This document shows positions 18,523-20,490 of a stretch of DNA of 64,000 bases, one piece after another. Location of the stretch: contig NZ_JAKREW010000022.1 in assembly GCF_022347545.1 (NCBI RefSeq), forward strand, positions 1 to 64,000. Direction: 5' to 3'. The notes below the pieces were generated by a model. That model did no database searches and was not told the DNA's origin. It was given only the letters and a program-made list of their open reading frames with translations. Source of the stretch: Terribium retamae (lineage in GTDB: Bacteria; Pseudomonadota; Alphaproteobacteria; Rhizobiales; Rhizobiaceae). The position numbers were made by a program, and so were the translations under genes. The stretch's first letter is position 1. Every line of letters starts with the position of its first letter.

Positions 18523-19059
18523 TTAGAACGGCTTTACGATCACCAGCACGACAATGATGATCATCAGCAATGTGGGGATCTCGTTGACGATCCGCCAGTG
18601 CCTGGCCGGTTTTTCATTGCGATCTTCCGCGAATTTACGCACGGCAGCCGAAAGATAGCCGTGGACGGCAGACAGCGCCACCACGGCCGCAAGCTTGGCA
18701 TGCAGCCAGCCACCCTGGAAACCAAACCCCTTCCAGGCCAGCCACAGGCCGAAGGCCCAGCTGATCACCATCGCCGGATTGATGATGCCGCGCAGCAGGC
18801 GCCGCTCCATCACCTTGAAGGTTTCCGACTGCTGCGAACCGCGTTCCGTCTCGGCATGGTAAACGAAAAGTCTGGGCAGATAGAGCATGCCTGCCATCCA
18901 AGAGATGACGGCAATCACATGGATGGCCTTGGCCCAGGGATAGAAGTCCTCCGGCGCCACCAGATAGAGCAGCGCGGCCAGGAACAGGAAGATGGCGATC
19001 GCGATCGCCGCCCGCCTCAGGGCTTGCCCACCGCCGGCTGCGCTGTTGCTGTCGGTCAT
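18523..19059 (-). CDS. hemJ: Protoporphyrinogen IX oxidase HemJ
   Basis: A 178-residue inner-membrane protein of the HemJ (UPF0093) family, which oxidises protoporphyrinogen IX in haem synthesis. Four to five membrane segments are visible; the conserved His lies in [20 protein letters not shown] (about 46-65) and a Lys/His pair in GGWLHAKL. The ATG at 19059 overlaps the hemE stop as ATGA, so the two haem genes are coupled. The longer frame to 19653 is antisense-style read-through of hemE and is not protein. Confidence 0.94.
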
Positions 19060-20084
19060 CGGCGGCTCCTCACCTGCTTTACCATCGCCTCGACATGCGC
19101 GATCGGCGTCTCCGGCGTGATGCCGTGGCCAAGGTTGAAGATCAGCGGTCCATCGGCCAAAGCGTCCAGAATGGCATCGACGCCTTCCTGCAAGGCCCGT
19201 CCGCCGGCAACGAGACGCAATGGATCGAGATTGCCCTGCACCGCACCATCCTTCTGCAGCGTCTCGGCGGCGGTCAGCGGCACCGTCCAGTCGAGACCAA
19301 GGCCTGATATACCTGTCTTGGAACGGTAGGAAGCATAGTTGGCGCCAGCGCCCTTTGGAAAACCGATCACTGGAACTTCCGGATACGCGGCACGGACCTG
19401 CCGCACGATTTCGGCGACCGGCTCGACACAGAAGGCCTGGAAAGAGCCCTCGTCCAGCACACCGGACCAGGAATCGAATATTTGCACGACATCCGCACCG
19501 GCTTCGATCTGGCGGATGAGATAAGACGCCGACTGGTCGGCCAGGGTTTTCAAAAGCCGCCTGAAAGCATCTGGCTCGCGATATGCAAACAGCCTGGCTG
19601 GTGCCTGATCCGGCGTGCCGTGGCCGGCGATCATATAGGTCGCTACTGTCCAAGGCGCGCCGCAGAAGCCGATCAAGGTGGTTTCATCCGGCAGTTTTCG
19701 GCGCAGTTGTCGCACCGTTTCGTAAACCGGTGCCAGATTCACGTGAAACAGTTCGGTATTCAGGGCATCGATCTCATGAGCCTGGATCGGCGTCAGAAGC
19801 GGCCCGCGGCCCTCCTCGAAACGCAGATCGCGGCCGAGCGCGTGCGGTACCACCAGAATGTCGGAGAACAGGATAGAGGCATCGAAGCCGAAGCGCTCGA
19901 TAGGCTGCAACGTCACTTCTACCGCGAGATCCGGATTGTAGCAGAGATCGAGGAAGCTGCCGGCACGCTTCCTCGTCTCGCGGTATTCGGGCAGATAACG
20001 GCCAGCCTGGCGCATCATCCAGAGCGGAGGCGGTGAAACCGTCTCCCCTTTCAGCACTTCAAGCACAGTCCGTCTGGCAGTCAT
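19056..20084 (-). CDS. hemE: Uroporphyrinogen decarboxylase
   Basis: A 342-residue TIM-barrel enzyme that converts uroporphyrinogen III to coproporphyrinogen III. The signature [17 protein letters not shown] is at about 18-35 with the catalytic-pocket arginines, and [13 protein letters not shown] follows near 140. Starts at ATG 20084. hemE next to the origin is the standard alphaproteobacterial arrangement. The codons for FHVNL contain a parS-like site (19735-19750). Confidence 0.96.
19735..19750. other. parS-like site inside hemE
   Basis: On the minus strand TGTTTCACGTGAATCT, two mismatches to the parS consensus, with GAATC in the right arm as in the mnmG-mnmE sites. It lies 0.7 kb from the origin. 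It could be coincidence, because it is encoded by an ordinary peptide. Confidence 0.45.
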
Positions 20085-20490
20085 GAGCCCGCTTTCGAAA
20101 GCCTATTTATAACTAAAAAGGATTCTTAAAGAGTCTTCTGATTCTACGAGTCTGTTTGAATCGGGGATGTCGAGCTGTCCATTATCGGGCACCAAAACGC
20201 CAGTCTCCATAATGTCGCGCGCTTTTCCTCGCGGTGTTGGGAACAGCGGGGAAAACTCGAATCGGTGTTTGGAATCAAAACCCTAGCCGCTGTGATCTTT
20301 TGTCTCGCCTGTGGGTGGTCTCAGGTCAGATTCCGTCCTCCCCAGACTTGTCCCCAGCCGCCCAAAAAAGCTGACAGCGGCATCAATTGTGGACAAGCAG
20401 CCATCTGATACAGTCGCTTTTGCACACCCGCCGGGTTGGTCCCGACTTATCCACATCCACCCACAGCATCACGCGAGCCGTTGTGAACAA
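20085..20490. other. oriC: Chromosome replication origin oriC (predicted)
   Basis: A gene-free gap between hemE (minus) and the PPDK regulator (plus), the site of oriC in Caulobacter and rhizobia. The left part is AT-rich (20103-20130) and suits unwinding. It contains five GANTC sites at 20121, 20131, 20140, 20148 and 20158, and three more at 20259, 20272 and 20329. The right part has a perfect DnaA box TTATCCACA (20447-20455) and near matches: TTGTCCACA (minus, 20388-20396), TTTTGCACA (20418-20426) and TTGTTCACA (minus, 20482-20490). Gene strands to the left mostly point away from this spot, as expected for leading-strand genes. Confidence 0.85.
20447..20455 (+). other. Perfect DnaA box
   Basis: TTATCCACA, an exact match to the high-affinity consensus, flanked within 65 bases by three one-mismatch boxes. 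Confidence 0.85.

Follow-up and report, generated by a model that had tools for sequence, protein, structure and literature searches.

The GANTC sites that cluster beside hemE in the 64,000-nt stretch of DNA analyzed here (the window) form a genuine and conserved array; judged from sequence comparison, its spacing is set by a three-base register and not by the turn of the helix. This register probably lies inside the stretch where the chromosome origin is opened, and a role in timing for methylation of the sites is possible. We propose a strand-opening element of the origin that combines a trio-type array, two weak box-like repeats, and built-in CcrM sites, and whose opening is modulated by methylation. 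We give this proposal as a whole about an even chance of being correct; that the element opens the origin is very likely, and that methylation modulates opening is a more tentative suggestion, somewhat short of even.

The cluster lies between a gene that we take to be hemE, for uroporphyrinogen decarboxylase (19056..20084), and a PPSR/DUF299 gene, whose start was placed at GTG 20483 from the N termini of relatives (MNKPQ). We take this gene order to mark the alphaproteobacterial origin locus. The earlier note had put the sites "at the origin"; gene order and two DnaA boxes (20388-20396 and 20447-20455) agree with this placement, and the identity of the origin is presumed (Table 1). The AT-richest 40 bp of the intergenic stretch begins at 20104 and overlaps the cluster in part. 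The same stretch contains one IHF-like site with one mismatch and no full CtrA site (TTAAN7TTAA, at most one mismatch). The window genome encodes GcrA, DnaA, and a methylase cognate to the CcrM target site, a 377-aa CcrM homolog that matches PDB 6pbd (CcrMI) with an E value of 3.4e-166; its score against the NCBIfam CcrM model, 642.7 bits, is below the cut-off of 830. Because 244 of 247 genomes of the family have a CcrM match, presence or absence of the enzyme is unusable as a natural contrast.

TABLE 1 Features of the presumed origin and its surroundings, in window positions
Feature	Position	Strand	Basis or remarks
Presumed oriC	20085..20482	.	Between hemE and PPSR/DUF299 gene; gene order and DnaA boxes
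hemE (presumably uroporphyrinogen decarboxylase)	19056..20084	-	
Fifth GANTC (+23)	20121..20125	.	Same place in 2/81 origins; out of triplet register
GANTC site 3	20131..20135	.	In 44/81 origins; triplet 6 has + strand A 20132 as its middle base
DnaA-trio-like array, triplets 1-6, 3'-GCA TCT TAG TCT TCT GAG-5'	20131..20148	+	Strand choice inferred
GANTC site 2	20140..20144	.	In 60/81 origins; triplet 3 has + strand A 20141 as its middle base
GANTC site 1 (gap site)	20148..20152	.	In 79/81 origins; search anchor held this site for 72/81
4-nt gap GACT, 9-mer 2 to triplet 1	20149..20152	-	
DnaA-box-like 9-mer 2, ATTCAAACA, 5 mismatches	20153..20161	-	Register -13
GANTC site 0, junction of the two box-like 9-mers	20158..20162	.	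In 19/81 origins
DnaA-box-like 9-mer 1, ACATCCCCG on hemE strand, 4 mismatches to TTATCCACA	20162..20170	-	Register -22
DnaA box TTGTCCACA, 1 mismatch	20388..20396	-	Motif match
Perfect DnaA box TTATCCACA	20447..20455	+	Motif match

All five GANTC starts listed by the earlier note (20121, 20131, 20140, 20148, and 20158) were confirmed in the window. Five sites within 42 bp arose in 1 of 20,000 trials in which 109 sites were placed at random, and in 0 of 20,000 runs of a first-order Markov model, for the intergenic stretch and again for the AT-rich 66 bp. The steps between the sites are 10, 9, 8, and 10 (mean, 9.25). On a helix of 10.5 bp per turn, they fall at 0, 343, 291, 206, and 189 degrees and span about half of the helix, with a helix-phase R of 0.37 that 56% of random 5- to 14-bp spacings equal or better. 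With the phases spread in this way, the earlier idea that the sites occupy nearly one face of the helix is wrong, and we ruled out such an arrangement. Across window positions 1-64000, GANTC is about threefold rarer than dinucleotide shuffles predict (109 sites observed versus 326 expected) and is thus depleted overall.

Our comparison covered 81 origins, namely, the window and the best-scoring 80 of 591 related hemE loci from one contig scan, so that close relatives weigh heavily. The anchor pattern AC[AC]GANTCNNAGAA locates the element upstream of hemE in 71 of the 80 loci as well as in the window; the other nine were recovered by mismatch search (four) or with variant anchors (five). Because the anchor fixed AC[AC], GA, TC, and AGAA in 72 of the 81 origins, conservation of those columns is partly by construction. 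At four of the nine nonanchored loci, the best hemE match lies elsewhere. A 20-letter core (at most three mismatches) was sought across the whole genomes of six relatives, these four and two others, and each has exactly one copy; the window's 27-letter core is unique in its own genome, also with up to three mismatches. One contig in the sample (L051) is titled Bacillus subtilis SK6B4 and carries an alphaproteobacterial hemE and origin element; this record seems to be mislabeled or contaminated.

The earlier note had named a lack of conservation of number or spacing in close relatives as refuting; on spacing, the comparison favors the observation. Steps of 8 and 9 between sites 1, 2, and 3 recur in Mesorhizobium, Corticibacterium, Aquamicrobium, and Ochrobactrum/Brucella, while the number of sites varies, with 1, 2, 3, 4, and 5 GANTC in 7, 18, 28, 21, and 7 of the 81 origins, respectively. 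In the 552 kb compared, clusters of at least three GANTC in 30 bp are concentrated near hemE (50 in 49 loci), and 4 lie elsewhere. Site 2 is missing from Aminobacter and Rhizobium loci; those of Rhizobium retain the triplets and the gap site and often lack site 3 as well. On a hemE tree of 77 of the 81 taxa (the four with hemE elsewhere were left out), changes per column number about 20 in the flanks, 8 in the 9-mers, 3 in the gap, and 4.5 in triplets 1 to 5.

Beyond this sample, a shorter degenerate core was found in 191 of 247 genomes of the family; the reversed control was found in about 52 of 247, so part of these matches is chance. Among the 56 nonmatching genomes, 26 were inspected and 22 have a hemE match; by eye, within 190 bp, 7 of these 22 loci have an origin-like element (6 of the 7 with a gap GANTC), and the remaining 15 have none. 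A 16-bp core with one mismatch occurs across the order in 43 of 297 genomes, including 8 of 8 from the same genus (the window's own among them) and 0 of 5 from other genera of the family. Outside the family, its 35 matches in 284 genomes, none exact, are background, since the reversed control gives about 49 of 284. In a class-wide sample, 43 of 58 genomes have a hemE match. Among 29 such loci examined, 9 have a DnaA box (at most one mismatch) upstream of hemE, none of these 9 has at least three GANTC by the last box, and in 4 of the 29 the upstream 420 bp include a 50-bp stretch with at least three GANTC.

Read on the hemE strand, the conserved element runs from two abutting box-like 9-mers through the gap GACT into the triplets CTA/CTT AGA ATC AGA AGA NTC. 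By column majority, 9-mer 1 is TAATCCCCG and 9-mer 2 is ATACCAACA, with some TATCCACC-like. We scored 56 offsets to the left of the triplets, in this orientation, for likeness to TTATCCACA in the 81 origins. The best offset was -13 and the second was -22 (mean mismatches of 3.57 and 4.49 versus 6.76 over all offsets), and these registers are the abutting 9-mers immediately before the gap. The repeats are weak in the window, with 5 and 4 mismatches, and a box with at most two mismatches is found in 14 of the 81 origins. To the right of the triplets, no register in the 81 origins averages fewer than 5.5 mismatches in either orientation. A reverse-oriented box-like 9-mer also stands at register -35, the best register in that orientation and at a fixed distance from the triplets (mean of 4.27 mismatches; at most two in 11 of 81). 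DnaA-trio-type triplets beside weak DnaA-box-like repeats would together make up the strand-opening element of a chromosomal origin.

The three-base period can be read on either strand. On the + strand, the middle base is A or C in all of the first five triplets of the window, compared with 0 and 1 in the other phases, and in 88% of cells of triplets 1 to 5 across the 81 origins, compared with 0% and 15%. The pattern holds in unanchored cells taken alone (276/324 versus 0/162 and 62/324), and 72 of the 81 origins have at least four of five amino middle bases, against 0 in another phase. Strict NAN triplets are scarce on this strand, with runs of at least three in 5 of 81 origins and a longest run of two in the window. 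The hemE strand has A at +3, +6, +9, and +12 in 81 of 81 origins, which amounts to four strict NAN triplets, and the +9 and +12 columns are unanchored. We ranked the + strand reading first, since the position of the boxes makes the + strand the 5' tail; taking the window's + strand as the trio strand follows published polarity. The hemE-strand reading is retained in second place, and its A period led us to lower the weight given both to the proposal stated at the outset and to the reading in which CcrM methylates the adenines captured by DnaA.

Departures from the consensus take several forms. Some relatives have plain CTA ATA ATA arrays (L080, L134, and L135), one locus carries an extra triplet between sites 1 and 2 with the register kept (L131), and one is off register (L137; 1 of 5). 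In a 1.2-Mb genome of the family (L144), a long ATA triplet array without GANTC lies beside a TTAATCACA box; this genome has a CcrM match.

The GANTC sites might arise only as a by-product of triplets in which ATC follows AGA and have no function in methylation, a reading that we consider rather unlikely. Consistent with it, amino middle bases on the + strand leave just one of the three registers open to a GANTC. Of 123 GANTC that start between +1 and +17, 122 are in that register, with the methylated + strand adenine in the middle slot; this placement follows from the triplet pattern and does not alone prove regulation. With the hemE strand as the trio strand, none of the methylated adenines would be a middle base. 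The by-product reading also accords with the Rhizobium loci described above, which manage without site 2 and often without site 3, and with initiation control in Caulobacter, which is independent of CcrM (PMC3973325).

The pattern of change within the sites argues against it. At site 3, 44 origins have both GA and TC, 7 and 3 have a single half, and 23 have neither; this co-variation was reached in 1 of 2,000 simulations of independent evolution, in which change counts were somewhat under those observed. The N of site 3 changes 11 times among the 44 holders, and the flanking columns there change 8 or 9 times. Since the halves co-vary while N drifts, GANTC itself appears to be selected. The gap site, which lies outside the triplets, keeps GA and TC with 0 to 2 changes per arm while its N changes 9 times, chiefly by exchange of C and G, although the arms lay in the anchor. 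Its halves also co-vary (2 of 2,000 simulations), a result that rests on the two origins with neither half. Half-site co-variation is as strong at site 0 (2 of 2,000) and weak at site 2 (65 of 2,000), where N is A in 60 of 60 origins, as a triplet element would demand. From these comparisons, we consider it likely that GANTC is selected as such.

A second alternative is that the sites form a methylation-dependent GcrA/sigma-70 promoter element for hemE and that their location at the origin is incidental. The cluster is 37 to 78 bp upstream of the hemE start, its two central sites (20140 and 20148) fit YGAKTCK, the extended GcrA motif as quoted in PMC7987155, and GcrA is encoded in the genome. 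This alternative leaves the three-base register and the box-like repeats unexplained, and the element lies anywhere from 57 to 430 bp away from the hemE match. Moreover, in two loci (L113 and L114), hemE is absent, and the element remains between PPSR and genes that we take to be hemJ-like and then rho. Because the element stays where hemE has left, we set the hemE promoter behind as the whole story and judge it distinctly unlikely. In these two loci, synteny is otherwise kept and hemE appears to be relocated. In two others (L117 and L118), the element adjoins what seems to be another hemE copy; the pairs L035/L118 and L039/L117 represent two genomes that seemingly have a second hemE away from the origin-side copy.

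Returning to an origin-opening element with built-in CcrM sites, we can outline how methylation might act on it. Initiation would leave the GANTC sites hemimethylated, and the element may then be easier or harder for DnaA to open until CcrM, late in the cycle, resets it by remethylation. Any such effect would be modulatory and not essential. In C. crescentus lacking CcrM, initiation control is normal (PMC3973325), and when A. tumefaciens is depleted of CcrM, ori2 is delayed but ori1 is not (PMC11514494); methylation is thus at most modulatory in those two species. If the + strand is the trio strand, a GANTC with amino middle bases would put methyl-adenine in the middle slot, whose base is the one that DnaA captures in the Bacillus structure. 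A version of the model in which CcrM gates opening directly, by methylating the very adenines that DnaA captures (the middle bases of + strand triplets 3 and 6), and so provides the family with a SeqA-free re-initiation clock, is in our view unlikely.

Alternatively, the array could be a landing site for a protein that binds hemimethylated GANTC and sequesters the origin in a SeqA-like manner. The clustering of sites at the origin resembles that in E. coli oriC, where SeqA acts (reviewed in PMC13337833). Against this, the one genome searched, that of the window, has no SeqA family match (the control was positive in E. coli), the sites are not on one face of the helix, and their number ranges from one to five. 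We regard sequestration as improbable.

CcrM is reported to be essential in several alphaproteobacteria (PMC6090056) yet is dispensable for initiation control in Caulobacter, and the element offers a defined 40-bp target for direct methylation tests. With this register set inside a putative opening element in Mesorhizobium and its relatives, it becomes possible to ask directly whether methylation affects how the origin opens. In the literature searched, as far as its available text goes, no registered GANTC array is described for an unwinding element; older S. meliloti and Caulobacter origin papers were outside that search.

The closest published counterpart is the BUS of Bacillus subtilis (DnaA boxes, GC gap, and DnaA-trios), which often has tandem DnaA boxes, a gap averaging 4 nt, 10 to 13 bp between the better box and the trios, and trios on the 5' tail (PMC8287927). 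The element shares with it the tandem 9-mers, the 4-nt gap, a distance of 13 nt between the first 9-mer and the triplets, a first triplet of 3'-GA(T/A)-5' in most of the 81 origins, and amino middle bases on the 5'-tail strand. It differs in its degenerate boxes, its many middle C for A, the methylation sites within the array, and Trp at the position of Asn187 in DnaA. In Bacillus, Asn187 contacts the amino group of the middle adenine, for which cytosine can substitute, and none of the triplet-reading residues of DnaA is universally conserved (PMC10721633). In the DnaA of the window genome, by an alignment read by eye, Asn187 corresponds to Trp246, Glu183 and Glu228 to Glu, and Arg202 to Lys261.

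The published BUS box rule calls for at most two mismatches, or for a tandem of at most two plus at most four (PMC8287927); the window has four and five, and among the 81 origins, 14 have a box with at most two mismatches and 9 fit the tandem rule. The trio rule calls for at least three NAN within 16 bp of a box on the 5'-tail strand, where the window has two and 5 of 81 origins pass; four consecutive NAN triplets occur in all 81 on the hemE strand, whose polarity is opposite. With weak boxes and no strict NAN array on the + strand, the element fails the published search rule. Under the relaxed amino rule (A or C in the middle, 5'-tail strand; PMC10721633), the window scores five of five. Judged by its sequence, the element would work like a BUS and may derive from one, and we do not call it a member.

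The Caulobacter origin is likewise an alphaproteobacterial origin that adjoins hemE. The C. crescentus origin also contains "several GANTC motifs" (PMC3973325, citing Shaheen 2009), with the difference noted above that CcrM is dispensable for initiation control there. Secondary repABC replicons likewise have GANTC-rich origins and promoters, and CcrM affects ori2 in A. tumefaciens (PMC11514494 and PMC6090056); these replicons share GANTC near the origin and differ in being RepC dependent and in their architecture (PMC6090056).

In E. coli, the methylase and the motif are different, and SeqA, which has no match in the window genome, is present. Of the components of a Dam/SeqA-type system, we found a conserved cluster of methylase sites at the presumed origin and no SeqA homolog (0 of 1 genome). 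The E. coli oriC DUE is similar in having methylatable sites inside it, as the presumed opening element has here. The reverse strand of E. coli K-12 reads TTATCCACA, GGGCAGTGC, GATC, CTA ATA AGA, and in a single by-eye alignment, GATC falls at nt 10 to 13 after the R1-type box and directly before CTA, in the place that GACT has here. In this register, the methyl-A of the E. coli GATC sites at +9 and +24 is not the middle base of a triplet. The comparison suggests that the same gap of the opening element carries a site for adenine methylation both in E. coli (GATC, methylated by Dam) and in this alphaproteobacterial family (GANTC, methylated by CcrM).
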